Of a stretch of 64,000 nucleotides of DNA, positions 33,956 to 52,106 are shown in pieces (position 1 is the first letter of the stretch; every line of letters begins with the position of its first letter). Under the pieces are notes generated by a model. That model was given only the letters and a program-made list of their open reading frames with translations. It did no database searches and was not told the DNA's origin. A program made the position numbers and the translations under genes. Origin of the DNA: Natronorubrum daqingense (GTDB lineage Archaea > Halobacteriota > Halobacteria > Halobacteriales > Natrialbaceae); NCBI RefSeq assembly GCF_001971705.1, contig NZ_CP019327.1:2542001-2606000 (forward strand), read 5' to 3'.

Positions 33956-34028
33956 GGGATCGTGGGTTAGCTTGGTATACTTCGGGCCTTGGGTGCCCGT
34001 GACCCCGGTTCAAATCCGGGCGATCCCA
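33956..34028 (+). tRNA. tRNA-Pro (anticodon TGG)
   Basis: A 73-nt cloverleaf. The acceptor stem is GGGATCG/CGATCCC with discriminator A at 34028. The anticodon stem CGGGC/GCCCG encloses the loop CTTGGGT, so the anticodon is TGG. The T arm is CCCGG-TTCAAAT-CCGGG. A TATA-like CTTTATG lies about 30 bp upstream. No intron and no encoded CCA. An A/T-rich scar follows, but no duplicated 3' end (att) is seen nearby. Confidence 0.94.
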
Positions 34029-36117: not shown

Positions 36118-39100
36118 ATGGCGCAAGCGGGAAATTCGGAACTCGTCGACGCATTCGAGCAGTTCTTCCGCAACTACTACGACAACCAGATCAAGCAACT
36201 TGCCCAGCGATATCCGAACGAACAGCGCTCGCTTCACGTCGACTGGCAGGACCTCTATCGGTACGACCCCGACCTCGCGGATGACTTTCTCAATCAGCCC
36301 GAACAGCTCCAGCGCTACGCCGAAGAGGCGCTTCGACTGTACGACCTCCCCATCGACGTGAGTCTCGGGCAGGCACACGTCCGAGTGAAGAACCTTCCCG
36401 ACACCGAAACCCCGGAAATCCGTGACATTCGCGCGCGGGATATGAACTCGCTCGTACAGGTTCACGGTATCGTCCGAAAGGCGACGGACGTCCGTCCGAA
36501 GATCGAAGAAGCCGCTTTCGAGTGTCAACTCTGTGGCACGCTCTCGAGAATCCCCCAATCCAGCGGTGACTTTCAGGAACCCCACGAGTGTCAGGGCTGT
36601 GAACGACAGGGCCCCTTCCGCGTCAACTTCGATCAATCGGAGTTCATCGACTCGCAGAAGCTCCGGATGCAGGAGAGTCCGGAGGGACTGCGCGGCGGCG
36701 AGACGCCACAGTCACTCGACGTTCACATCGAAGACGACATCACCGGCGAAGTCACGCCCGGTGATCACGTCTCCGCCACCGGCGTCCTCAGACTCGAGCA
36801 ACAGGGCAACGAGCAGGAGAAATCGCCCGTCTTCGACTTCTACATGGAAGGCATGTCCGTCGACATCGACGAAGAACAGTTCGAGGACATGGACATCACC
36901 GACGAGGACAAAGAAGAGATCGTCCGCCTCTCCTCGAGTGAGGGTATCTACGAGAAGATGATCGCCTCCATCGCACCCTCCATCTACGGCTACGATCAGG
37001 AGAAACTCGCGATGATTCTCCAGTTGTTCTCGGGCGTCACGAAGCAGTTGCCAGACGGCTCGCGGATTCGTGGTGACCTGCACATGCTCCTCATCGGGGA
37101 TCCAGGTACCGGTAAGTGCGTTCGCGGAGATACGAAAGTCGCCCTCGCAGACGGTCGCAACGTTTCGATACGTGAGATCGTCGAGTCGAATCTCGAGGAC
37201 CCGAAACCAATCGACGACGGCTGGTACGACGAGATCGATCTCGAGGTACCGTCGCTACAGAGCGATGGATCGATCGCGCCCCAGCGGGCGACCAAAGTTT
37301 GGAAACGAGAAGCTCCCGAGCAGATGTATCGGATACAGACCTCGAGTGGACGAGAACTCGAGGTGACGCCGTCTCATCCGCTGTTCGTACAGCGTGATGG
37401 GCAGTTCGAACCGGTTGTTGCGAGTGACCTCACTGAAGGACAATTCATCGCCACACCGCGAGCCCTCCCCACAGAAGGCGAGAACGTGCTCGACGTTGAT
37501 TTCCGCCAATCGCAATCGAGAAATGCAGTTCAATTGGACCTGCCAACGGAATGGACTCCGTCGTTGGCTCGATTGATTGGATATATCATCGCAGAAGGGT
37601 ACGTCGAACAGCGGGACGACAATACTGGATTTGTTTCGATTACGAATAACGACAGAGAGGTATTGGACGACGCTGCCAATGCACTCGAGGAACTGGGCCT
37701 CAACACGACAGAACGCAGTCCTTGCGAGTCAAAGGAGGCACGCGAACTACGTTGTTCGGCGGGAGAGTTCGTCAGCTTTCTCGAGACGCTCGAGCCGTGT
37801 ATTCTCCAGTCATCCAAAAAGCAACGCGTCCCAGATGCTATCTTCACGGCTTCTGAGTCGGCGAAATCCGGATTCCTCACGGCCTTCATCGAAGGGGAAA
37901 GTCATGTTTCGGAGTCTCAGCGAGAGATTACTGTCGCTTCAATGAGTCGTGAGTTGCTCGAGAACGTTCGAACGTTACTGCTCTCAGTTGGAATTCGCTC
38001 ACAGCTTTACGAACGACGGAACGACAGTTATCGACTCAGAATAAGCGGGAACGAATTTTCAAAATACGTCTCTCAAATTGGGTTTGTGACCCAGCGAAAG
38101 CGAGAAACTGTGTCACAGCACGCAAATACAGCCCGAAATACGAATCTCGATATCGTCCCGAATCTGGGTTCGGAACTCCGGCAAATTCGGGAATCACTAT
38201 CGCTTACGCAAGCTGACTGTCGGCTTCCTCGATCGACGTACCAGAACTACGAACGCGGATCGAAAAACCCGAGTCGAGAGAGTCTCCGAAAGGTCATCTC
38301 GGCATTCAAAGACGCACTACCAGCGAAAGCTGACCAAAGCGAAGCGGACAATGTCGTAGCTGACGGTGGGTCCATAGAAACGAGCATTGCGGCTCTCGAG
38401 CCATTCGCTGAAGGAGATGTCTGCTGGGAATGCATCGAGTCGATCGACAGAATTGAACCAGATTACGACTGGGTATACGATCTCGAGGTTGAGGAAACCC
38501 ACAACTATGTCTCGAACGGGGTTATCTCGCATAACTCCCAGATGCTGGGCTACATCCAGAATATCGCGCCTCGAGCGGTCTACACCTCGGGGAAGGGCTC
38601 TTCGTCTGCAGGGCTGACCGCGGCTGCCGTACGCGACGACTTCGGTGACGGCCAGCAGTGGACGCTCGAGGCTGGGGCGCTCGTCCTCGCCGATCAGGGA
38701 ATCGCGGCGGTCGACGAGCTCGATAAAATGCGAAGTGAGGACAGGAGTGCCATGCACGAGGCCCTAGAGCAACAGAAGATCTCGGTCTCCAAGGCCGGAA
38801 TCAACGCGACGCTCAAGTCTCGGTGCTCACTACTTGGCGCGGCGAACCCAAAGTACGGGCGATTCGACCACTACGAGCCGATCAGCGAGCAGATCGACCT
38901 CGAGCCGGCGCTCATCTCGCGATTCGACCTGATCTTCACGGTCACGGACCAGCCAGACGAAGAGAAAGATCGGAACCTCGCCGAACACATCATCACCACC
39001 AACTACGCGGGTGAGTTAACCACCCAGCGCGAGCAGATGACGTCGATGGACGTCTCGAGCGAGGAAATCGAGGAGATGACGGAGCAAGTCGACCCCGAAA

Positions 39101-39639
39101 TCGACTCGGAACTCCTGCGAAAGTACATCGCGTACTCCAAGCAAAACTGTCACCCCCGCATGACAGAAGCCGCCCGAGAGGCGATTCGAGACTTCTACGT
39201 CGATCTCCGTTCACAGGGAACAGACGAGGACGCTGCCGTTCCGGTGACGGCACGAAAACTCGAGGCTCTCGTCCGATTGTCGGAGGCCAGTGCCCGCGTT
39301 CGACTTTCGGATACGGTCGAGGAGACGGACGCGACTCGCGTCATCGAGATCGTTCGCTCGTGTCTTCAGGACATCGGTGTCGATCCCGAAACCGGCGAGT
39401 TCGACGCGGACATCGTCGAGGCCGGAACCTCGAAATCGCAGCGCGATCGGATCAAGAATCTCAAACAACTCATTAGCGACATCGAAGAGGAGTACGACGA
39501 CGGTGCACCGGTTGATATCGTCTTAGAGCGCGCCGAGGAGGTTGGAATGGACCACTCGAAGGCAGAACACGAAATCGAGAAACTCAAACAGAAAGGCGAG
39601 GTCTACGAACCGAGTACGAACACTCTCCGGACGACCTAA
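36118..39639 (+). CDS. mcm: replicative DNA helicase MCM, interrupted by an intein
   Basis: A 1173-residue reading frame: about 700 residues of MCM plus a 473-residue intein. The N-terminal part (residues 1-300) includes a zinc finger CQLCG...CQGC (about 139-162) that helps hexamer formation. The Walker A LLIGDPGTGK ends at K333 where the intein begins, and MCM resumes at S807 with SQMLGYIQ. Walker B AAVDELDKM and the arginine finger SRFDLIF follow, then a C-terminal winged helix. The protein unwinds DNA ahead of the replication fork. With the intein in place the P-loop is split, so activity needs splicing. Gene is monocistronic with its own TATA. Confidence 0.96.
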   Translation: MAQAGNSELVDAFEQFFRNYYDNQIKQLAQRYPNEQRSLHVDWQDLYRYDPDLADDFLNQPEQLQRYAEEALRLYDLPIDVSLGQAHVRVKNLPDTETPEIRDIRARDMNSLVQVHGIVRKATDVRPKIEEAAFECQLCGTLSRIPQSSGDFQEPHECQGCERQGPFRVNFDQSEFIDSQKLRMQESPEGLRGGETPQSLDVHIEDDITGEVTPGDHVSATGVLRLEQQGNEQEKSPVFDFYMEGMSVDIDEEQFEDMDITDEDKEEIVRLSSSEGIYEKMIASIAPSIYGYDQEKLAMILQLFSGVTKQLPDGSRIRGDLHMLLIGDPGTGKCVRGDTKVALADGRNVSIREIVESNLEDPKPIDDGWYDEIDLEVPSLQSDGSIAPQRATKVWKREAPEQMYRIQTSSGRELEVTPSHPLFVQRDGQFEPVVASDLTEGQFIATPRALPTEGENVLDVDFRQSQSRNAVQLDLPTEWTPSLARLIGYIIAEGYVEQRDDNTGFVSITNNDREVLDDAANALEELGLNTTERSPCESKEARELRCSAGEFVSFLETLEPCILQSSKKQRVPDAIFTASESAKSGFLTAFIEGESHVSESQREITVASMSRELLENVRTLLLSVGIRSQLYERRNDSYRLRISGNEFSKYVSQIGFVTQRKRETVSQHANTARNTNLDIVPNLGSELRQIRESLSLTQADCRLPRSTYQNYERGSKNPSRESLRKVISAFKDALPAKADQSEADNVVADGGSIETSIAALEPFAEGDVCWECIESIDRIEPDYDWVYDLEVEETHNYVSNGVISHNSQMLGYIQNIAPRAVYTSGKGSSSAGLTAAAVRDDFGDGQQWTLEAGALVLADQGIAAVDELDKMRSEDRSAMHEALEQQKISVSKAGINATLKSRCSLLGAANPKYGRFDHYEPISEQIDLEPALISRFDLIFTVTDQPDEEKDRNLAEHIITTNYAGELTTQREQMTSMDVSSEEIEEMTEQVDPEIDSELLRKYIAYSKQNCHPRMTEAAREAIRDFYVDLRSQGTDEDAAVPVTARKLEALVRLSEASARVRLSDTVEETDATRVIEIVRSCLQDIGVDPETGEFDADIVEAGTSKSQRDRIKNLKQLISDIEEEYDDGAPVDIVLERAEEVGMDHSKAEHEIEKLKQKGEVYEPSTNTLRTT
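37117..38535 (+). mobile_element. intein in the Walker A motif of MCM, with LAGLIDADG endonuclease and HTH
   Basis: The intein runs from Cys334 (CVRGDTKVALADGRNVSIRE, N-block A) to Asn806 (VISHN, C-block G) followed by Ser807 as nucleophile, so all splicing residues are present. Block B is SHPLFVQ-like. Homing endonuclease blocks: LARLIGYIIAEGY (block C) and SGFLTAFIEGES (block E, where the usual second Asp is altered to Glu-Ser). A Xre-like helix-turn-helix (LGSELRQIRESLSLTQAD) lies at about residue 683-730. Base composition is more A/T-rich than MCM, a sign of independent transfer. The second endonuclease aspartate looks changed, so nuclease activity may be weakened or lost. Confidence 0.93.
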
Positions 39640-42205: not shown

Positions 42206-42283
42206 TCACGCTACGACGAGGATAAGGAGTGCCGCCGGCACGATCATCATCAATAGCGTGGCGAGCAGTGCTTTGAACCACAT
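42206..42283 (-). CDS. possible 25-residue single-helix membrane peptide
   Basis: A minus-strand ORF reads MWFKALLATLLMMIVPAALL and five more residues, so almost entirely one hydrophobic helix. A TATA-like TATTATA (42314-42322) lies about 33 bp upstream of the ATG at 42283, as expected for a leaderless gene. It is upstream of thrC, 136 bp before it, on the same strand. No family is recognised; the short length makes chance possible. Confidence 0.4.
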   Translation of the reverse strand: MWFKALLATLLMMIVPAALLILVVA

Positions 42284-42424: not shown

Positions 42425-42506
42425 TGGACCAAAACGGTCGCTCGTTTCGCTCGTGTGTCGACTACTCGAGTAGCCAACTCAACAACGCCTTCTGTGCGTG
42501 CAGTCG
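42425..42506 (-). repeat. downstream duplicate of the argF 3' end (gene tail and terminator)
   Basis: Positions 42462-42506 match 42671-42715, the last 15 codons and stop of argF, with one mismatch; the flank 42425-42461 also matches 42630-42670 more loosely (GAGCGAAACGAGCG and T-run). The copy is 209 bp downstream of the original, and in frame still encodes NRLHAQKALLSWLLE and stop. 42284-42461 and 42507-42629 otherwise show no gene. Confidence 0.85.
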
Positions 42507-42629
42507 ATTCTACAACCCACCTTTTTCCACTCGGGTTCACTTCGCTCACGGCGTCGCCGTTCGCTGTCGCGATTCTCACTCACCTCGTTCGTCCCGAATC
42601 GCGCCTCGCTCACCCGTCGCGCAAAAACC

Positions 42630-42670
42630 TGGACTAAAAAGCCACCCGCTCGTTTCACTCGCGGTCGGTA
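42630..42670 (-). terminator. likely argF terminator
   Basis: Downstream of the argF stop the minus strand reads CCGC-GAGTGAAACGA-GCGG then GTGGC and TTTTT, a short hairpin with a T-run. It is repeated in diverged form at 42425-42461. Confidence 0.45.
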
Positions 42671-43591
42671 CTACTCGAGCAGCCAACTCAACAACGCCTT
42701 CTGTGCGTGCAGTCGGTTTTCAGCCTGATCGAACACGACCGAGTGCTCGCTCTCGACGACATTGTCGGTGATCTCCTCGCCGCGGTGGGCGGGTAGACAG
42801 TGCATAACGGAGGCTTCCGGTGCGTGCTCGAGCAAACTCGAACAGACCTGGAAGCCCTCGAAGGCGTCCATTCGGACGTCACGTTCGTCCTCCTGGCCCA
42901 TGCTGATCCAGACGTCGGTGTAGATGACATCGACGCCCGAGACGGCGTCAACGGGATCGCTCGTGACCGTCGGGTCGCCGCCGAGTTCGCGCGCTCGCTC
43001 GAGGACGGCGTCGTCGACGCCGTAGCCCTCGGGGGTGGCGACCGTCAGATCGATGCCGGCGAGCGCACAGCCGAGGACGAACGACTGGGCGACGTTGTTG
43101 CCGTCGCCGACCCACGCCGCCGAGACGCCCTCGAAGCCGCCTTCTTGCTCGCGGATCGTCAACAGATCGGCGAGCGTCTGGCAGGGGTGGGCGTCGTCGG
43201 TCAGGCCGTTGACGACCGGCACCGAGGCGTACTCCGCGAACACTTCGATGTTCTCGTGTTTGAAGACGCGAGCCATCACGGCGTCGACGTACCGCGAGAG
43301 CGTTCGCGAGGTGTCTTTGAGCGGTTCGCCTCGCCCGAGTTGGATGTCGTCCTCGCCGAGGAAGACGGCGTGGCCGCCGAGTTGGGTCATCCCCGTCTCG
43401 AAGGAGACGCGAGTTCGCGTACTCGGCTTCTGGAAGATCATGCCCAGGGTCTGGCCAGCGAGATCCGCGTGGTCTTCGCCGCGTTCCTGAGCGCGCTTGT
43501 ACGTCGCCGCGCGTTCGAGGACCGTCTCGAGTTCGGCTTGCGAGAGGTCGGTGATCTCGAGGAAGTGACGGACGTCAGTGGTTGTGGCCAT
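42671..43591 (-). CDS. argF: ornithine carbamoyltransferase
   Basis: A 306-residue transcarbamoylase. The carbamoyl-phosphate motif FQKPSTRTRVSFE is at 53-65 (STRTR 57-61), the ornithine loop MHCLPAHRGEE is near 262. It condenses carbamoyl phosphate and ornithine to citrulline, the first step after ornithine. The start is ATG 43591, overlapping the stop of argE (TGATG); a GTG at 43594 is possible. It is the last gene of the LysW-arginine operon. Its last 15 codons recur 209 bp downstream. Confidence 0.96.
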   Translation of the reverse strand: MATTTDVRHFLEITDLSQAELETVLERAATYKRAQERGEDHADLAGQTLGMIFQKPSTRTRVSFETGMTQLGGHAVFLGEDDIQLGRGEPLKDTSRTLSRYVDAVMARVFKHENIEVFAEYASVPVVNGLTDDAHPCQTLADLLTIREQEGGFEGVSAAWVGDGNNVAQSFVLGCALAGIDLTVATPEGYGVDDAVLERARELGGDPTVTSDPVDAVSGVDVIYTDVWISMGQEDERDVRMDAFEGFQVCSSLLEHAPEASVMHCLPAHRGEEITDNVVESEHSVVFDQAENRLHAQKALLSWLLE

Positions 43592-44700
43592 CACTCCTCA
43601 CCTCCGCGAAGCGTTGTCGAAACCCCTTCTAAGACCGCAACGGAGCGGTCGAATTCCGCGAGCGAGAGTCGTTCGTCCGGCGCGTGATCGAGGTCCGAGT
43701 TGCCGGGGCCGTAGGTAACCATCGGACAGTCCCACTCGCCGGCATAGAGGTTCATGTCGCTGGTCCCGGTCTTGCGCAGGAGTCGGGGGTCACCGACCTC
43801 GTTGCGGATCGCAACGCGGAACGCGCGAGCGACCTCGGTCCGTGGACTTTCCATGACCGGTGGGATCGGTTCGGCCCAGGAGACGGTCCCGATCTCGAGG
43901 CCGGCTTCGGCTGTCTCGCGGACGGATTCGGCGTCCAGTGACGGCGGAATCCGCAACTGAACGTCGAGGGTCGCCTCGACTGAAAGCCCGTCCTCGCTGA
44001 TCCCGCCGTCGATATCGACGGGTTTGGCGGTGACGCGTTCGAAGACGGCCGTGTACTCGTCGTTCTCGAAGGCCGCTTCGACGCCGTTCCACCAGTTCGT
44101 CGCGTGTTGGATCGCGTTCGGCTCCGGCCGTGACGTGTGGCCGGATTCGCTGGTCGCGACGTAGGTGCCTGCGAGAAAGCCACGATAGCCGAGCGTAATC
44201 CCAGTGGTTCCGCTGGGTTCGCCGTTGACGACGGCATCGGGCTCCGATCGCTCGTCGACCAGGTGCCGTGCGCCGCGCGAACTGGTCTCCTCGCCGACGA
44301 CGCCGACGAAGGAGACGCCGGTTCGAACGGCTGCTGCGGCCATCGCGGCCAACGGGCCGGTGGCGTCGACGCTGCCACGACCCCAGAGGACGTCTTCGCC
44401 GAGTTCGTCGGCAACGTCTTGCTCGAGGTCGTTCTCGTCCGCTGGCTCGACTTCGACCGGAATTTCGCCGGGCACGGTATCGACGTGTGAGGTCAACAGC
44501 ACGGAATCGTCTGCCGGTGCCCGTACGTTGCCGACCTCGTCCAGCCACGCCTCGCGGCCGTAGCTCTCGAAGAATTCGACGAGGACCTCGGCCGCGTCGG
44601 TTTCTGCATCCGATGGTGAGGGTGTCGATACGAGGTCGATCAGAAGTTGGCGGGCGTCTGCGGCCGAAACGTCGGTCTGATCGGTCATGCTCGCGTTCAT
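43591..44700 (-). CDS. argE: [LysW]-ornithine/lysine hydrolase (LysK/ArgE type)
   Basis: A 369-residue M20 peptidase. Metal residues: LLTSHVDTVPGEIPVEVEP (H73 zone), WGRGSVDATGPLAAM, GVVGEETSSRGARHL (EE), and GTSDMNLYAGEWDCPMVTYG near the C-terminus. It releases free ornithine (or lysine) from the LysW carrier protein. Start ATG 44700 overlaps the argD stop as ATGA. Bacterial ArgE-type length (about 375) fits. Confidence 0.93.
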   Translation of the reverse strand: MNASMTDQTDVSAADARQLLIDLVSTPSPSDAETDAAEVLVEFFESYGREAWLDEVGNVRAPADDSVLLTSHVDTVPGEIPVEVEPADENDLEQDVADELGEDVLWGRGSVDATGPLAAMAAAAVRTGVSFVGVVGEETSSRGARHLVDERSEPDAVVNGEPSGTTGITLGYRGFLAGTYVATSESGHTSRPEPNAIQHATNWWNGVEAAFENDEYTAVFERVTAKPVDIDGGISEDGLSVEATLDVQLRIPPSLDAESVRETAEAGLEIGTVSWAEPIPPVMESPRTEVARAFRVAIRNEVGDPRLLRKTGTSDMNLYAGEWDCPMVTYGPGNSDLDHAPDERLSLAEFDRSVAVLEGVSTTLRGGEE

Positions 44701-45845
44701 GATTCCTCGTCGGAGCCGATAACCGCCGTCAGCGCGGTGACGAGTTGGTCCGCCTCCGCCTCGTCGATCACGAGTGGCGGCAGCAGCCGCAATACGGTTC
44801 GACCCGCGGGCAAGGCAAGCACCTGGTGGTTCATCGCCAGATCACGCGCTGCGCGGTTTGCCCCGCGTTTCAACTCGAGGCCGATAAGCAGGCCCTCACC
44901 ACGGACCTCACGCACGTCGTCACCGAGTGCGGCCTCGAGTTCGGTCGTGAGATAGTCGCCCATCTCGGCGGCGTGGGCGGGCCACTCCTCCTCGACGAGC
45001 GTCGAGATGGTTGCATGGACTGCGGCGGTAACGACGGGCCCGCCGCTGAACGTGGCGTTGTGGGATGCTGCGCCGTTTGCGATCCAGTCTTGGACCGCAA
45101 CCGCGCCGATTGGCAGCCCGTTACCGAGCCCTTTCGCGGTCGTGAGGATGTCGGGTGTGACACCCGCGTTCTGACAGGCCCACATCTGTCCCGTCCGGCC
45201 CATGCCGGTCTGGACCTCGTCGAAGACGAGCGCTGCACCGACTTCCTCGGTACAGTCACGAGCCGTCTCGAGGTAGCCCGCCGGCGGGACGTTGATCCCC
45301 CCTTCGCCCTGAATCGGCTCCAAGATCACCGCAGCGGTCTCGTCGTCCACAGCCTCCGCGAGTTCCTCGCTGTCGCCGTAAGGGACGAACTCGATGTCGC
45401 CGACGAGCGGTTCGTATGGCTCTTTGTACTTGTCTTTCCACGTCGCCGCCAGCGACCCCATCGTCCGTCCGTGGAACGAGCGAGTCGCGGCGATGATCTT
45501 CGAGTTGCCGGTCGCCGAGCGGGCGAACTTCAGTGCTGCCTCGTTGGATTCGGTCCCGGAGTTACAGAACCACGCCTGCTCGAGGCCGTCGGGTGTCGAG
45601 GCCACGAACGCGGCGTAGGCGTCCGCCCGTGACTGGACTGGGAACGAGGAGTCGACGAACGTTAGGTCTTCGACCTGTGTCGTGACGGCGTCGACGACCG
45701 CTGGATGGGAGTGGCCAAGCGGCGTACACGCGAAACTCGCGCCAGCATCGAGGTACTCCGTTCCGTCCGCGGTGTACAGCGAGACGCCCTCACCGCGTTC
45801 GATTCCGATCGGCTTGCTTCCGGAAATGAAATCGTCGTCGCTCAT
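44697..45845 (-). CDS. argD: [LysW]-aminoadipate/acetylornithine semialdehyde transaminase
   Basis: A 382-residue class-III PLP aminotransferase. Motif GVSLYTADGTEYLDAGASFA starts near residue 19; the PLP Lys is in ILTTAKGLGNGLPIGA (about K235), and DEVQTGMGRTGQMWA precedes. It transaminates LysW-gamma-glutamate/aminoadipate semialdehyde with glutamate. Overlaps argB by 4 bases. Length and motifs normal. Confidence 0.94.
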   Translation of the reverse strand: MSDDDFISGSKPIGIERGEGVSLYTADGTEYLDAGASFACTPLGHSHPAVVDAVTTQVEDLTFVDSSFPVQSRADAYAAFVASTPDGLEQAWFCNSGTESNEAALKFARSATGNSKIIAATRSFHGRTMGSLAATWKDKYKEPYEPLVGDIEFVPYGDSEELAEAVDDETAAVILEPIQGEGGINVPPAGYLETARDCTEEVGAALVFDEVQTGMGRTGQMWACQNAGVTPDILTTAKGLGNGLPIGAVAVQDWIANGAASHNATFSGGPVVTAAVHATISTLVEEEWPAHAAEMGDYLTTELEAALGDDVREVRGEGLLIGLELKRGANRAARDLAMNHQVLALPAGRTVLRLLPPLVIDEAEADQLVTALTAVIGSDEES

Positions 45846-46702
45846 TTTGCAGTCTCCGTTTCCATTTCGTCTGCGAGTACGTCTGGCTCGAGCGTCGTGC
45901 CCTCGCCTGCGAGCGCGCTCGTAATCGGTGCGTCCGCGTTGGCGGTCGCGACGATCACCGAGGACGCGCCGCCCTCGAGTGCCTCTTCGGCGGCCATGAC
46001 CTTCTTGGTCATGAAGCCTTCTGCAGCCGATTTGACCTGCTCGAATTCGTCGGGGGTTGCAGCCGAATCGATCTTGGTCGACTCGTCGTCGGGGTCCTCG
46101 TAGATCCCGGATACGTCGGTGAGGACGACCAGATCGGCCTCGAGCGCGCCAGCAATCGCTGCGGCCGCGCGGTCGGCGTCGGCGTTGACCGCCGTGTAGC
46201 TCCCGTCTTTCTCCTTTCCGAGTACGGGAACGGAGACAACGGGCGTGTAACCGCCCGCGAGGACGGTCTCGAGCAAGTCTGCGTTGACCGACTCGATCTT
46301 CCCCGAGTGGTCGCCGCGTTTGATCTTCTTCTTGCCGTCTTCTTTCACGCGGACGGCCGACTTGCGTTTCCCCTCGAGGAGTTTCCCATCGGTACCCGAG
46401 AGGCCGACGGCGTCGACGCCCTCGTTTTGGAGGCTCTCGACCAGATCGGTGTTGAGCTTGCCGGGCATGACCATCTTGAACACGTCCATCGTGTCCGCGT
46501 CGGTAAAGCGCCCGACAACGCCGCCGGGGGTCTCGACGTAGGTTGGCTCCTGCCCGAGGTCCTCGAGCGTCTCGTCGACGGCGGTCGACCCGCCGTGGGT
46601 CAACACCACGTCCTCGCCGTCGGCGACGAGGCTCGCGACGTCCGCCAGTGCGCCTTCGGGATCGACGGCGCGTGCGCCGCCGATCTTGATTACTGTCGTC
46701 AT
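45842..46702 (-). CDS. argB: [LysW]-aminoadipate/glutamate kinase
   Basis: A 286-residue amino-acid kinase. The N-terminal glycine loop MTTVIKIGGARAVDPEG and LTHGGSTAVDET (about 54-65), then VVLTDVSGIYEDPDD (about 193-207) and ADRAAAAIAGALEADLVVLT. It phosphorylates the carrier-bound glutamate or aminoadipate side-chain carboxyl. The stop overlaps the argD start as ATGA. The gene order and LysW nearby indicate the carrier-dependent (not acetyl) pathway. Confidence 0.94.
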   Translation of the reverse strand: MTTVIKIGGARAVDPEGALADVASLVADGEDVVLTHGGSTAVDETLEDLGQEPTYVETPGGVVGRFTDADTMDVFKMVMPGKLNTDLVESLQNEGVDAVGLSGTDGKLLEGKRKSAVRVKEDGKKKIKRGDHSGKIESVNADLLETVLAGGYTPVVSVPVLGKEKDGSYTAVNADADRAAAAIAGALEADLVVLTDVSGIYEDPDDESTKIDSAATPDEFEQVKSAAEGFMTKKVMAAEEALEGGASSVIVATANADAPITSALAGEGTTLEPDVLADEMETETAK

Positions 46703-46703
46703 C

Positions 46704-47777
46704 TCAGGGGGCCCCCACTGGATGGAGTCCTGCGAACTCGAGTCCGGCCGTCTCCTCGAGTCCGAGTGCGATGTTGGCCGCGTGGACGGCCTGTCCCGCG
46801 GAGCCTTTCATCATGTTGTCGATGGCCGAAAAGACGACGATCCGTTTGTTCGAGGGGTCGAGTTCGAAGCCGACCTCGGCGAGGTTCGTCCCGGCGACCG
46901 ATTTGGGTTCGGGGTAGCGATAGACGCCGGAGCCGCCGGCGGCCATCCGGACGAACGGCTCGTCCTCGTAACAGCCGCGATAGGCTTGCCAGAGGTCGCC
47001 TTTCGAGACTGGTCCAGTCGGGAAGACGTGGCTCGTCGCGCTCGCGCCGCGGATCATGTCCACGGCGTGGCAGGTAAAGGAGACGCTCGTGCCGAGGAAC
47101 TGCTCGATCTCGGCCTCGTGGCGGTGTCCCGTCGGTGCGTACGGACGGATGACACCCGAGCGTTCGGGGTGACTCGAGGCCTCGCCGCCGCCTGCGCCAC
47201 CTTCCGAGGAGCCGACTTTCACGTCGACGACGACCTGTTCTCCCCCCTCCAAAATGCCGTGCTCGAACAGCGGATAGAGGCCCAAAATCGTCGCCGTGGC
47301 GTTACAGCCGCCGCCGGCGATCAGTTCTGCGCCCGCGAGGTTCTCGCGGTTGATCTCAGGTAAGGCGTACTCCGCTTTCTCTAAGTATTCCGGCGCGTCG
47401 TGGCCGTCGTACCACTCGTCGTACTGCGCTTCCGTCTCGAGGCGGAAGTCGGCCGAGAGGTCGACGACGGTGTCGGCGATCTCGAAGAACTCGTCGATCT
47501 GTCCCATGGAGACGCCGTGGGGCGTCGCGGCGAACAGGACGTCGACGGACTCGAGATCGTCTGGTTCCGTAAAGCGAAGGTCCGCCCCGCGCAGCGGCGG
47601 GTGGACCGAGCCAACGCTCTTGCCCGCTTTCGATCGGCTGGTGACTTCGGCGATTTCGATGGTCGGGTGCCCCGCGAGCAGGCGAAGCAGTTCGCCGCCC
47701 GTAAAGCCCGACCCACCGATGATGCTCGCGGTGACCGTCTCGGCTGCCTCGGCGTCGGTCTCGGCTTCGATCGCCAT
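46704..47777 (-). CDS. argC: [LysW]-aminoadipate/glutamate semialdehyde dehydrogenase (ArgC-type)
   Basis: A 357-residue reductase. Rossmann motif SIIGGSGFTGGELLRLLAGH starts near 18, the catalytic cysteine is in AGGGCNATATILGLYP (about C162), and a conserved His-containing GHRHEAEIEQF follows. It reduces the carrier-linked gamma-glutamyl/aminoadipyl phosphate with NADPH. The ATG overlaps the argX stop by one base (TGATG). The first 14 residues are an acidic extension of typical haloarchaeal form. Confidence 0.94.
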   Translation of the reverse strand: MAIEAETDAEAAETVTASIIGGSGFTGGELLRLLAGHPTIEIAEVTSRSKAGKSVGSVHPPLRGADLRFTEPDDLESVDVLFAATPHGVSMGQIDEFFEIADTVVDLSADFRLETEAQYDEWYDGHDAPEYLEKAEYALPEINRENLAGAELIAGGGCNATATILGLYPLFEHGILEGGEQVVVDVKVGSSEGGAGGGEASSHPERSGVIRPYAPTGHRHEAEIEQFLGTSVSFTCHAVDMIRGASATSHVFPTGPVSKGDLWQAYRGCYEDEPFVRMAAGGSGVYRYPEPKSVAGTNLAEVGFELDPSNKRIVVFSAIDNMMKGSAGQAVHAANIALGLEETAGLEFAGLHPVGAP

Positions 47778-48697
47778 CAGACGCTCACCTCGAGTTCGTC
47801 AGCCTCGGCGGCCGCTTTCTCCTCGAGCCAGTCGACGACGGTGCCGGCGATATCGGTCTCGACGGCGCCATCGAGCGCTTTGAACTCGACGGTGTGGTTG
47901 ACTTCGTGGACGGTGTATCGCTGGCCAGACTCCGTCTGGCTACCCTCCGAGGGTTCCTCGGAGACCTCTTCAGTCTCCATCAGATCGATCCCGAGCAGAC
48001 CGCCGCCGACGGCGTCACTCGCCTTCTGGACGAGTTCTCGAGCCTCGTCGTCGACCTCGAAGACGTCCGTCTCCGCACCTTTCGCAGCGTTGGTGATCCA
48101 GTGATCCGAGGAGCGAACCATCGCGGCGATGGGCTCGCCGTCGGTCGCGACGACGCGGATGTCCCGACCCGGTTTCTCGACGAACTCCTGGACGTAGAAC
48201 ACCTTGTGCTCGTAGTGGCCGAGCGTCGCCTTGTGCTCGAGGATGGCCTCGGCGGCGTCGGGCGAGTCGATTTTGGCCATCAATCGGCCCCAGGACCCGA
48301 CGACGGGTTTGAGGACGCAGGGGTAGCCAAACTCCTCGATAGCCTCCATCGCGCTCTCTTTGGTGAACGCGACTTTCGTCTCCGGCGTCGGAACGCCGGC
48401 TTGCTCGAGTGCGAGGCTGTTCTTCACCTTGTCCGCGCAGATGTCCGCCGTCTCGTGGCTGTTGACGACGGGAATGTCGTAGGCCTCGAAGAACTGCGTG
48501 GCGTAGAGGCTCCGGCTCGTGGCGAGACAGCGATCGACGACGATGTCGAGGTCAGCGAACGAGTCGGGTGCCTCGCTGATGTCGAAGTCGTGTTTGCGGA
48601 CGTCGATCTTTTCGATCTCGTGATCGCGCTCGCGAAGCTCGTTGAGCAGGAGCTTCTCGTCTTTTCGAATACGGGAGTAGAGTATTCCTACCTTCAT
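47777..48697 (-). CDS. argX: glutamate--LysW ligase (ArgX)
   Basis: A 306-residue ATP-grasp ligase starting MKVGILYSRIRKDEKLLLNE. ATP-grasp motifs: PCVLKPVVGSWGRLMAKIDS (about 123-142), FYVQEFVEKPGRDIRVVATD, LGIDLMETEE near 234 and VNHTVEFKAL (about 270-280). It ligates glutamate (possibly also aminoadipate) to the C-terminal Glu of LysW. Its N-(E/F)-type motif could decide substrate: this VNHTVEFK matches ArgX rather than LysX-only enzymes, a cautious inference. The lysW gene is 58 bp upstream. Confidence 0.93.
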   Translation of the reverse strand: MKVGILYSRIRKDEKLLLNELRERDHEIEKIDVRKHDFDISEAPDSFADLDIVVDRCLATSRSLYATQFFEAYDIPVVNSHETADICADKVKNSLALEQAGVPTPETKVAFTKESAMEAIEEFGYPCVLKPVVGSWGRLMAKIDSPDAAEAILEHKATLGHYEHKVFYVQEFVEKPGRDIRVVATDGEPIAAMVRSSDHWITNAAKGAETDVFEVDDEARELVQKASDAVGGGLLGIDLMETEEVSEEPSEGSQTESGQRYTVHEVNHTVEFKALDGAVETDIAGTVVDWLEEKAAAEADELEVSV

Positions 48698-48755
48698 GCG
48701 AACCACCCGTGATCAGGGCGTGCAGGGAGTACTGTGGTTGTGGCCGTCTGCAAGG

Positions 48756-48920
48756 TCACTCACCCCAGTCCTCTTCGAGCTCGGGGGCTCGCTCGAGGAC
48801 TGGCGGCTCGGTGTCGACGACTTCCAGTTCGGCTCCGCACGTGGTACAGTCAACGATCTCTCCAACTTCCAGATCGTCGTGCAGGGACACTTCTGCCCCA
48901 CACTCGACGCATTCGGTCAT
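48756..48920 (-). CDS. lysW: LysW/ArgW amino-group carrier protein
   Basis: A 54-residue protein starting MTECVECGAEVSLHDDLEVG and ending EDWGE. It has a zinc ribbon (C4-x2-C7, C25-x2-C28) and the conserved C-terminal Glu to which ArgX attaches the substrate. The protein carries intermediates of arginine (and possibly lysine) synthesis through the cluster. It starts at ATG 48920 with a TATA-like TTTAAG about 30 bp upstream (48949-48955), so it heads the six-gene unit to argF. Confidence 0.92.
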   Translation of the reverse strand: MTECVECGAEVSLHDDLEVGEIVDCTTCGAELEVVDTEPPVLERAPELEEDWGE

Positions 48921-49115: not shown

Positions 49116-50588
49116 TCAGACATAGCCGCTCACCTCGTCGCGAAGGTCGGTGTGTGCCTCCTCGAGTGCGTCACTCGTCTCCTCGAGTGTCACTTCCGCA
49201 GCCTCGAGCGCCTCTCGGGCTGACTCGAGTTGAGCCGCCACGGAAGCGGGAGCAGGCCCACCCTGTGAGTCGCGACTCGCGACGCTTTCGGCCGGATCGA
49301 GGGCGGCTTCGACGGCTGCGGGGTCGACGACCGACTCGAGTGGCTCACCGAGGACGTCCTCGGCGGCGGTCTCGAGGGCGTCGTAGTCGGCCCCGTTTTC
49401 GGCGGCGATGGCGACCAGTTCGTGCGCCGTCCGGAACGGCAGTCCGTTCGCCGCGAGCACGTCGGCGACGCCGGTCGCCGTCGAGAAGCCCTCGCCGGCT
49501 TCGGCGGCCAGCGTCTCCTCGTTCCACTCGGCCGTTGCAACCGCCCCCGCGGCGACCTCGCCGGCGTCCGTCACGGCGTCGACGGTCTCCCAAGCGTGGG
49601 TCGTCGCCCGCTGAAGGTCGCGGTTGTACGCGCGGGGAAGTCCCTTGAGCGTCGTTGTCAACCCCTGGACCGACCCCGCCGCGTCTCCCGCGACCGCACG
49701 AACCAACTCGAGCGTGTCCGGGTTCTTCTTCTGGGGCATGATCGACGACGTCGAGGAGTAGTCGTCCGATAGCTCTACGAAGCCGCGATTCGCGAAGACG
49801 ATCACGTCTTCCGCGAGTCCTGACAGCGTCGTCGCGTGCGTCGACAGCGCCTGCGTCGTCTCGAGCAAGAAATCTCGACTCGAGGAGGCGTCCATCGAAT
49901 TTTCGACGACCCCCGCGAATCCGAGCAGTTCGGCGGTACGCTCGCGGTCGATGTCGAACGTGGTTCCCGCGAACGCGGCCCCGCCGAGGGGCGACTCGTT
50001 GATTCTGCCGTAGGCCTCGAGCAGGCGCGCCGTGTCGCGACGGACCGCACCCTCGTAGGAGAGCGCCCAGTGTGCGACGGTGATCGGCTGGGCGGGCTGA
50101 AGGTGCGTGTAACCGGGCATGATCGTCTCCGCGTTCGCCTCGGCGACCTCGACCAGCGCCTCGCGCAGGGCAAGCGTCGTCTCGATGGCGTCGAGAACGT
50201 CCTCGCGCAGGCGGTAGCGAATGCACGCGGCGACCTCGTCGTTTCTCGAGCGCGCGGTGTGCATCTTTCCGCCGTCGTCACCGATGCGTTCGATCACGGC
50301 CGTCTCGATGGCTTCGTGTACGTCCTCGCCGTCGGGAAGCGAGTCGTGGCCGTCGACTTCGATCGCATCCAGCGCCGTGAGGATTTCGCCGGCGACGTCG
50401 TCGTCGACGATTCCTTGTTCGGCGAGCATGACGACGTGGGCGCGATCGACCGCGAGATCGGCCTCGAAGATCCGTTCATCCGCTGCGAGCGAGGAGAGGA
50501 ACCCTCGAGCGGGGCCGCCGCTGAAGCGGTCTCGTCGGACGACCGACTCGTCTTCCTCGGCTCCGTCGGGAGTGCTCTCCTCTGGCAT
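49116..50588 (-). CDS. argH: argininosuccinate lyase
   Basis: A 490-residue fumarase/aspartase family lyase. The signature region is SSIMPQKKNPDTLELVRAVA (about 280-299) and DRAHVVMLAEQ...; MHTARSRNDEVAACIRYRL holds a substrate site. It splits argininosuccinate into arginine and fumarate. The gene follows argG by 2 bp (50588 and 50591), so argGH is one operon. It has a long acidic N-terminus (MPEESTPDGAEEDESVVRRD). Confidence 0.96.
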   Translation of the reverse strand: MPEESTPDGAEEDESVVRRDRFSGGPARGFLSSLAADERIFEADLAVDRAHVVMLAEQGIVDDDVAGEILTALDAIEVDGHDSLPDGEDVHEAIETAVIERIGDDGGKMHTARSRNDEVAACIRYRLREDVLDAIETTLALREALVEVAEANAETIMPGYTHLQPAQPITVAHWALSYEGAVRRDTARLLEAYGRINESPLGGAAFAGTTFDIDRERTAELLGFAGVVENSMDASSSRDFLLETTQALSTHATTLSGLAEDVIVFANRGFVELSDDYSSTSSIMPQKKNPDTLELVRAVAGDAAGSVQGLTTTLKGLPRAYNRDLQRATTHAWETVDAVTDAGEVAAGAVATAEWNEETLAAEAGEGFSTATGVADVLAANGLPFRTAHELVAIAAENGADYDALETAAEDVLGEPLESVVDPAAVEAALDPAESVASRDSQGGPAPASVAAQLESAREALEAAEVTLEETSDALEEAHTDLRDEVSGYV

Positions 50589-50590
50589 GG

Positions 50591-51826
50591 TTATTCGTCC
50601 TCGTCGGTTCCGCTCCCGTCTGTCGCGAGTTCGACTTCCTCGTCCGCGTCGTCGTCGATCACCGAGTTCGCGAGACGGCGCTGGAAGCCGTGGTACTTCG
50701 CGACGCCCGTGGCGTCTTCCTGGTCGATCTTGCCGACCGTCTCCGTGTCGAAGGAGGCGTGTTCAGCCGAGTACGCCGCGTACTCACTGTCGCGTCCAAC
50801 CGCACGAGCCTGACCGCCCTCGAAGCGAATCGTGACGGTCCCGGTCACGCGCTGTTGGGTCTCGTCGATGAAGCCCTCGAGTGCGCTCACGAGGGGTGCG
50901 TCGACCAGTCCTTCGTAGCCCTTCTTCGACCAGCGCTGGTCGATGAGCTGTTTGAACTCGCGTTCTTCCTGGGTAAGGACGAGCCCCTCGAGGGCCTCGT
51001 GGGCGTTGAGCAGCGTCGTCGCGGCCGGGTGCTCGTAGTTTTCGCGGACCTTCAGTCCGAGCATGCGGTCTTCCATCGAATCGGTACGGCCGACGCCGTA
51101 GGCACCGGCGACCTCGTTCAGGTGCTGAACGAGCTCGACCGGCTCGTACTCGACGCCGTCGATGGCGACGGGGTAGCCCTCCTCGAAGGCGATTTCGATC
51201 TCTTGGGTCTCGCCGGTAGGGGCCTGCGTCCAGTTGTAGATCTCCTCGCCCGGAACGTAGCTCGGATCCTCGAGTTCGGAGCCCTCGACCGAGCGACTCC
51301 AGATGTTGGTGTCGACCGACCACTTGCCGCCGTCGCCGCCCTCGACGGGCAGGTCCTTCTCCTCGGCGTACTCGTTTTCCCACTCGCGCGTGAGTCCGAG
51401 TTCGCGGACGGGCGCGATAACCTCGAGGTCGGAGTCGCGCCAGACGGCTTCGAAGCGGAGCTGGTCGTTTCCTTTGCCCGTACAGCCGTGGGCGATACCG
51501 GTACAGCCCTGTTCTTCTGCGACCTCGAGAATCGCGTTCGCGATTACGGGGCGGGCGAGCGCCGTTCCGAGCGGGTAGCCCTGGTACGTCGCGTTCGCGC
51601 GGACGCTGTCGAGACACAGCTGTGCAAATTCGTCTTTCGCGTCGACGACGTAGTGTTCGAGGCCGAGCGCTTCGGCGGTTTCTTCTGCTTCGTCGAATTC
51701 GGACGCCGGCTGGCCCACGTCGACCGTGACGCCGATGACGTCGTCGTATCCATATTCTTCCTCGAGCAGCGGGACACAGACAGTCGTGTCCAGTCCGCCC
51801 GAGAACGCAAGTGCCACGCGTGTCAT
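50591..51826 (-). CDS. argG: argininosuccinate synthase
   Basis: A 411-residue PP-loop enzyme: MTRVALAFSGGLDTTVCVPL contains the ATP motif SGGLDTT (9-15). It condenses citrulline and aspartate. It starts at ATG 51826, with CTTAAG (51856-51861 region) about 30 bp upstream, a possible near-leaderless promoter; a second, stronger promoter with a leader ORF lies further upstream (52098-52106). It is followed by argH. Confidence 0.96.
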   Translation of the reverse strand: MTRVALAFSGGLDTTVCVPLLEEEYGYDDVIGVTVDVGQPASEFDEAEETAEALGLEHYVVDAKDEFAQLCLDSVRANATYQGYPLGTALARPVIANAILEVAEEQGCTGIAHGCTGKGNDQLRFEAVWRDSDLEVIAPVRELGLTREWENEYAEEKDLPVEGGDGGKWSVDTNIWSRSVEGSELEDPSYVPGEEIYNWTQAPTGETQEIEIAFEEGYPVAIDGVEYEPVELVQHLNEVAGAYGVGRTDSMEDRMLGLKVRENYEHPAATTLLNAHEALEGLVLTQEEREFKQLIDQRWSKKGYEGLVDAPLVSALEGFIDETQQRVTGTVTIRFEGGQARAVGRDSEYAAYSAEHASFDTETVGKIDQEDATGVAKYHGFQRRLANSVIDDDADEEVELATDGSGTDEDE

Positions 51827-51981
51827 ATCGTGTTCGAGGGAAACGTCAGGAGGGACTTAAGCACATTGGTTTCCAATCCGAAAAATAGCGCGAGAGATGC
51901 TGCTAACCAAGAATTCGGGGTTTCCTGATCGTGTCGAACGGTGAAATGAACCGGTCTCGGGAGGTAAAGTAGTAGTCGGGC

Positions 51982-52074
51982 TCAACGGCCCGGCCGCCGC
52001 CGTCGTGGTCGCCGCGGCGAGACGGTCCCGTCGGTACCGAAAAGGGTGAGCGCGGTACCGACGGTGGGACGCAT
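51982..52074 (-). CDS. candidate arginine-rich leader peptide upstream of argG
   Basis: ATG at 52074 opens a 30-residue frame, starting MRPTVGTALTLF and ending SPRRPRRRRPGR with TGA at 51982. Seven of the last ten residues are arginine (codons CGG, CGA and one CGT). The ORF begins 28 bp after a TATA box (52098-52106), as for a leaderless mRNA, and ends 155 bp before argG. A perfect 12-bp inverted repeat lies within it. No homologue is known to me. It could be a chance ORF in GC-rich DNA, but the position, promoter and composition together suggest translational control by arginine. Confidence 0.45.
   Translation of the reverse strand: MRPTVGTALTLFGTDGTVSPRRPRRRRPGR
52028..52064 (-). promoter_or_regulatory. 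12-bp perfect hairpin inside the argG leader
   Basis: CCGTCGGTACCG (52028-52039) and CGGTACCGACGG (52053-52064) are exact reverse complements with a 13-nt loop containing AAAAGGG. In RNA this would be a very stable stem spanning codons 4-16 of the leader ORF. Confidence 0.65.
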
Positions 52075-52097
52075 ACCCGAGTCTATGCGAGCGATCG

Positions 52098-52106
52098 ATA
52101 TTAAAA
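52098..52106 (-). promoter_or_regulatory. TATA box of the argG leader transcript
   Basis: ATATTAAAA on the plus strand (TTTTAATAT on the transcribed side) is centred 28 bp upstream of the leader ATG at 52074. Confidence 0.55.

Follow-up and report, generated by a model that had tools for sequence, protein, structure and literature searches.

Leaderless arginine-codon leaders before argG in Halobacteria, with phenylalanine and tryptophan counterparts, as candidates for ribosome-mediated control by tRNA charging

RESULTS

A short reading frame that ends in a run of arginine codons, and whose stop codon usually lies within a conserved hairpin, precedes argG in haloarchaea. We think it probable that this frame encodes a leaderless leader peptide whose translation senses charged Arg-tRNA, the position of the ribosome controlling exposure of the hairpin and of the tract that follows it and hence the operon transcript. 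An arginine-sensing leader had been put forward in the original prediction, and that reading is now supported by the use of rare cognate codons, by the placement of the stop codon in a covarying hairpin, and by parallel leaders for phenylalanine and tryptophan. On balance, though with somewhat less assurance, we also favor the broader view that Halobacteria use leaderless cognate-codon leaders (Arg before the argG operon, Phe before pheS, and Trp before a trpS paralogue) for ribosome-mediated control that depends on tRNA charging, possibly via factor-dependent termination.

The leader and the operon in Natronorubrum daqingense

The DNA analyzed, referred to here as the window, is a stretch of 64,000 nt from N. 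daqingense (contig NZ_CP019327.1); positions given are those of the window, and features are on the reverse strand unless marked otherwise. A leaderless-type leader-peptide ORF of 30 amino acids at 52074..51982 translates as MRPTVGTALTLFGTDGTVSPRRPRRRRPGR followed by a stop codon and ends in RRPRRRRPGR, as had been read from the sequence before, and matching ORFs stand before argG in relatives. The distal promoter is marked by a TATA box, TTTTAATAT (52098..52106), ~31 nt 5′ of the ATG; the spacing was correctly described in the original prediction, and because it fits a transcript start at the ATG itself, we read the message as leaderless. The Arg-rich codon run that we propose as the sensor occupies codons 21 to 30 (51985..52014) and was assigned from codon bias and from the position of the arginines. 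A search of the whole window against Rfam returned no family above the gathering score except one tRNA (33956-34028).

The gene downstream is argininosuccinate synthase, as predicted: argG (50591..51826, starting at 51826) was identified by the NCBIfam argG model with 451 bits. It is the first of nine consecutive arginine genes in the same orientation (argG-H-W-X-C-B-D-E-F), the others being argH (49116..50588), argW for the LysW/ArgW carrier protein (48756..48920), argX for the LysX/ArgX ligase (47777..48706), argC (46704..47777), argB (45842..46702), argD (44697..45845; TIGR00707 scored below its cutoff, and the name comes partly from operon context), argE (43591..44700), and argF for ornithine carbamoyltransferase (42671..43594). 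Three other observations were made in this part of the window. The last ~30 nt of argF (AAGGCGTTGTTGAGTTGGCT...CTCGAGTAG) are repeated ~210 bp downstream (42435-42700), which resembles a 3′-end duplication. Upstream of thrC lies a hydrophobic ORF of 25 codons, MWFKALLATLLMMIVPAALLILVVA (42206-42283), possibly a small membrane protein; we do not take it for a threonine leader. The MCM helicase gene (36118-39639, forward strand) is split by an intein that carries a LAGLIDADG-type homing endonuclease domain.

The leader is conserved across haloarchaeal families

Of the 76 loci that an ArgG scan of GTDB genomes returned, one was bacterial and 75 were haloarchaeal, the window among them. A matching ORF was found before argG in all 74 haloarchaeal relatives (the ATG of locus L065 was repicked by hand). 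In these loci, as in the window, the ATG follows a TATA-like motif by ~30 to 33 nt, and the arginine-rich part precedes hairpin B. Another 50 argG loci, from other haloarchaeal families, were also analyzed, and 49 of them showed matching leader anatomy; this set consisted of 20 regions around covariance-model matches and 30 argG loci that included genomes the model had missed, and several of its ORFs were repicked by eye. The sole exception among these 50 was L187, from a small-genome family, which has no matching leader. Thus, a short ORF with an arginine run is conserved upstream of argG, contrary to the lack of conservation in relatives that the original prediction had named as the outcome that would count against it.

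The covariance model, built from 57 sequences, matched 303 of the 391 genomes of the class and 79 of its 86 genera at E ≤ 0.01. Inspected genomes without a match still carry a leader with a diverged or different hairpin, that of L187 excepted, and the figure of 303 is therefore a lower bound. Strong matches that were examined all lay before argG. Second matches, present in 20 genomes, were considered as additional leaders, and the nine that we read resembled either GC-rich coding sequence or the starts of ordinary genes. A search for argG itself on annotated plasmids gave bacterial matches only.

Four features are conserved: the TATA-ATG spacing, a covarying hairpin within the ORF (hairpin A), the run of arginine codons, and another hairpin, also covarying, in which the stop codon usually lies (hairpin B). 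In 112 of 125 loci, the first T of a TATA-like motif falls 30 to 35 nt 5′ of the ATG. In four loci (L006, L009, L011, and L016), the arginine run and hairpin B are kept and the ORF continues for 15 to 25 codons beyond B.

Two covarying hairpins flank the arginine codons

The perfect 12-bp hairpin noted earlier within the ORF is the inverted repeat CCGTCGGTACCG/CGGTACCGACGG, with its 5′ arm at 52053..52064 and its 3′ arm at 52028..52039, and it covers codons 4 to 16. The fold of this region in the window is unexceptional (z = −1.1, with 23 of 200 shuffled sequences folding equally well), so the case for the hairpin rests on comparison between species. Its arms differ between clades (CCGTCGG/CCGACGG, GGCTCCG/CGGAGCC, ACCCACCG/CGGTGGGT, and GGCTCGTCGC/GCGACGAGCC). 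When hairpin A was imposed as a fixed structure on an alignment made from sequence only, 76.7% of cells were paired, compared with 30 to 44% when the structure was slid along the alignment, and the covariation score was 0.151, compared with at most 0.101 when slid. RNAalifold returned no consensus pairs from the same sequence-only alignment because the helices shift register. The region of A was more stably folded than shuffled sequences (mean z of −1.57), unlike the 60 nt after B (0.06).

Hairpin B (CGGGC-CGTTGA-GCCCG; 51977..51992), which was absent from the original prediction, overlaps the stop codon, and its stems show compensatory changes (CGGGC/GCCCG, GGGCC/GGCCC, GGGGTC/GACCCC, CGGCC/GGCCG, GGCCC/GGGCC, and GGGGC/GCCCC). 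It is followed directly by a pyrimidine-rich tract of 18 nt without G (51959..51976). Across the 125 loci, each of the first 17 positions after B carries a G in only 0 to 8 loci, and positions 5 to 15 do so in 0 to 5. No U-tract terminator follows hairpin B; a C-rich, G-poor tract is found there instead. Nor could a conserved, mutually exclusive antiterminator pairing be demonstrated.

We modeled how a ribosome on the leader would affect hairpin B by masking a 30-nt footprint before folding. Hairpin B formed in 88% of leaders free of ribosomes; with the A site placed at codon −10, −7, or −4, the share was 87%, 21%, or 0%, respectively, and with the ribosome at the stop codon it was also 0%. 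The model is crude, and the toggling of B follows from the position of the ribosome. On this model, the site within the arginine run at which the ribosome dwells would decide whether hairpin B can exist.

Sequence between hairpin B and argG

In the window, a proximal promoter-like site, CTTAAGT, lies before argG (51855..51862); such sites occur in Natrialbaceae and some other clades. A regular-expression search found one in 79 of the 125 loci, including the window, and at least four of the other 46 seem by eye to have one, leaving ~40 without. In these ~40 loci, the leader promoter is the only apparent promoter for argG. A start only near 51833, with the leader left untranscribed, had been raised as a possible objection to the leader, and the ~40 loci without a proximal site make this unlikely as a general rule. 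In N. daqingense itself, which has a proximal site, argG transcription may start from there only, and the leader cannot be assumed to be the only control of argG.

The output of the leader could also be other than termination. According to a reading that we regard as unlikely, though deserving of weight, the leader senses Arg-tRNA, ribosome occupancy or hairpin B determines whether the message is protected, and mRNA stability or argG translation is what changes. There is no recognizable terminator after hairpin B, as this reading would have it, and in the clades without a proximal promoter argG begins ~60 to 110 nt downstream, often behind a further, variable hairpin (ACCGTC/GACGGT, TACCGCC/GGCGGTA, or GTCGCC/GGCGAC). 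However, the sequence after B varies between clades, so that no common translational target is visible, and in Natrialbaceae it contains a promoter-like site of its own. Some loci without a proximal promoter (for example, L047, L056, and L138) have overlapping stems directly ahead of the argG start, CCGCCC/GGGCGG and GTCGGGT/ACCCGAC, that are mutually exclusive or pseudoknotted.

The arginine run keeps the frame of the ATG

Between the ATG and hairpin B lie 58 to 143 nt. Over the last 33 nt ahead of B, arginine codons number 561 in the frame of the ATG, compared with 228 and 216 in the other two frames; the ATG frame is the best arginine frame in 113 of the 125 loci, and a stop codon falls within hairpin B in 114 of them. 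These loci share descent, and the counts of frame and position, including those below, are not independent trials. Several loci with a one-base phase shift have an added base in the loop of B that restores the in-frame stop. Among the 114 loci, arginine stands at positions −4, −5, −6, and −7 from the stop in 99, 71, 84, and 92, respectively. Even in the AT-rich leader of locus L182, the ORF ends TRRRRRAV before GGGCCGTTTAGGCCC. From sequence, the leader ORF appears to be read as protein.

These counts bear on the possibility that there is no translated leader and that a structured RNA or DNA-binding element contains CGA repeats that merely look like arginine codons in GC-rich genomes. CGACGA-like repeats are indeed common in haloarchaea, a short stretch alone matches scattered sites in other genomes, and the structure of hairpins A and B does not depend on translation. 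We nevertheless give this explanation very little credence in view of the agreement of the ATG frame over so many leader lengths, the fixed TATA-ATG spacing, the compensating one-base shifts that hold the stop in B, and the persistence of RRRRR in L182. The frame agreement, the TATA spacing, and the AT-rich leader likewise disfavor a simple GC-repeat artifact.

Codon choice points to tRNA supply

Within the last 12 codons of the leaders, arginine is encoded by CGA (396), CGG (143), CGT (43), CGC (29), and AGG (2). CGA and CGG together make up 88% of these codons, compared with 10% in argG, where the arginine codons of the ArgG-scan loci (n = 1,412) are CGC (71%), CGT (18%), CGG (8%), and CGA (2.5%); in eleven CDSs of the window, CGA stands at 24%. 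Runs of rare cognate codons are typical of some bacterial attenuator leaders. Local constraints of RNA structure could lie behind part of the CGA preference.

The rest of the peptide is little constrained. Among ORFs that end in hairpin B, the N-terminal part is free in sequence and in length (23 to 51 amino acids in all), and the peptide is not conserved outside the arginine run, with PG, PGR, or PGL frequent at the C terminus. Were the leader a nascent-peptide sensor like the fungal arginine attenuator peptide, with ribosomes arrested on the stop codon by the arginine-rich chain or by free arginine, so that high arginine is what stalls them, these C-terminal residues and the location of the stop within a conserved hairpin would fit. 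The lack of peptide conservation outside the run tells against such a sensor, as does the rare-codon bias, which indicates tRNA supply, and we rate it as quite improbable.

Phenylalanine and tryptophan leaders

Upstream of N. daqingense pheS (L237, near G000:C1:2709 kb) is an ORF encoding MALESPVRVRRDARRLRDRRGFGFFFAR followed by a stop codon; a T-rich TATA-like motif precedes its ATG by 30 nt. Leaders before pheS in several haloarchaeal families (L232-L258) end in GFGFFFAR, GFGFFFGA, or GFGFFFAA; they have no G-poor tract. The scan did not recover the pheS leader ORF in about half of 30 genomes, in some of which the gene start was mis-set. A trpS paralogue found in some relatives, as well as in Haloferax mediterranei and H. 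larsenii, is preceded by the leaders MVSTSHANCWRWHAFREVDSIAV and MVSTSRATCWRWRSTWEVDSIAV, each followed by a stop codon, and the motifs CWRWH, EWRWRW, and RRWRWH recur before this paralogue (L263, L266, L269, L270, L294, and L295). Here, the tryptophan codons sit in the loop of a covarying hairpin (TCCACTTCCC/GGGAAGTGGA, TCTACTTCCCA/TGGGAAGTAGA, CTCTCGAG/CTCGAGAG, and CCGCTCCCG/CGGGAGCGG). The same scan found no such ORF in five other trpS plasmid records. No comparable leader was found before argS in 17 genomes or, in the N. daqingense genome, before thrC, hisG, leuA and related genes, or the trpD-F-E operon.

Differential RNA sequencing of Haloferax volcanii had placed uORFs in the long 5′ untranslated regions of the same kinds of genes, one of 26 amino acids before pheS and one of 23 amino acids (mass, 2743) before a tryptophan--tRNA ligase gene, with no second transcription start marked at either gene in the entries concerned (PMC4983044, Table 2). 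Our Trp leaders, at 23 amino acids and 2,703 and 2,728 Da, are near the latter entry, a comparison of size alone. The table presents these uORFs as small proteins of low isoelectric point and has no entry for argG, and the section on the table does not link them to cognate codons (PMC4983044).

That the argG leader is instead a functional small basic protein, acting for instance in RNA binding, and only incidentally next to argG would be in keeping with the conserved ATG, promoter, and arginine-rich tail, but we consider it exceedingly improbable, given the variable N terminus, the retention of mainly the arginine run with its CGR bias, the location of the examined strong model matches before argG, and the existence of a Phe version at pheS and a Trp version at trpS, which fit sensing and not a common protein function.

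DISCUSSION

We propose that a leaderless mRNA would begin at the ATG near 52074 or immediately ahead of it and that the first ribosome would make a throwaway peptide, the final codons of which are mostly the rare CGA and CGG. The supply of charged Arg-tRNA would then set how long the ribosome dwells in the run between hairpins A and B. A ribosome early in the run would leave B free to form, and one nearing the end of the run or standing on the stop codon would hold it open; ribosome position would thereby govern whether the machinery of transcription or mRNA decay can reach B and the G-poor pyrimidine tract, and this access would set the amount of transcript that reaches argG and the rest of the operon. 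In the version that we favor, ample Arg-tRNA would allow the ribosome to reach the stop codon and leave, B and the tract would be exposed, and transcription would stop early, perhaps through aCPSF1/FttA acting as termination factor once the ribosome has gone. Scarcity of Arg-tRNA would hold the ribosome on the leader, coupling would be kept, and RNA polymerase would continue, so that starvation would be expected to raise expression.

Several reports from archaea bear on this scheme. It has been proposed that the ribosome and aCPSF1/FttA compete sterically for Spt4/5 (PMC8116511; PMC11616081), and interactions between RNA polymerase and the ribosome have been reported in Haloferax (PMC8576121). 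A preference of FttA for U-rich RNA has been reported (PMC11616081), and this weakens the idea that the C-rich tract is its loading site.

If the proposal is true, an Arg leader present throughout the class, together with its Phe and Trp counterparts in relatives of model organisms such as Haloferax, would allow a direct test in vivo of whether ribosome position controls what becomes of an archaeal transcript, haloarchaeal arginine synthesis would be supplied with a regulator, and attenuation would have arisen more than once or be very old. H. volcanii and Natrinema gari J7-2 are both amenable to genetics, and arg mutants of J7-2 are available (PMC10433800). No report of an archaeal leader-peptide attenuator was found in the full-text literature searched, a weak form of evidence, since most subscription papers and all of bioRxiv lie outside its scope. 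The closest archaeal counterparts are the H. volcanii uORFs, as listed in the table discussed above, which resemble our leaders in standing before pheS and a tryptophan--tRNA ligase gene and have mapped transcription starts there (PMC4983044).

Outside the Archaea, three kinds of leader invite comparison. A candidate arginine-responsive uORF before an arginine biosynthesis gene recalls the uORF of fungal arg-2/CPA1. In the fungal arginine attenuator peptide, the peptide sequence is conserved and a run of arginine codons is not needed, whereas the haloarchaeal leaders conserve arginine codons and not the peptide outside the run. The tnaC leader of Escherichia coli is Rho dependent and senses free tryptophan via its nascent peptide. 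As in tnaC, a ribosome at the end of the haloarchaeal leader could mask an unstructured C-rich tract after the stop codon; Archaea, to our knowledge, lack Rho, and the candidate factor here is, unlike that of tnaC, aCPSF1/FttA, with its reported U-rich preference.

The third kind comprises the ribosome-mediated attenuators of bacterial amino acid operons and of pheST, of the trpL, hisL, leuL, and pheM types. The haloarchaeal leaders differ from these in their leaderless initiation, TATA promoter, stop codon inside a hairpin, and G-poor pyrimidine tract, and in having neither an intrinsic U-tract terminator nor a demonstrated antiterminator. They share with them a short leader ORF, a run of cognate and often rare codons, flanking hairpins, and a position before a biosynthetic or synthetase gene. 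Marks by which attenuators are recognized were also found, namely, a run of codons for the end product before the operon and an ORF, frame, and regulatory codons conserved across species. By analogy, then, and with the intrinsic terminator set aside, the haloarchaeal arginine leader appears to work like a leader-peptide attenuator.
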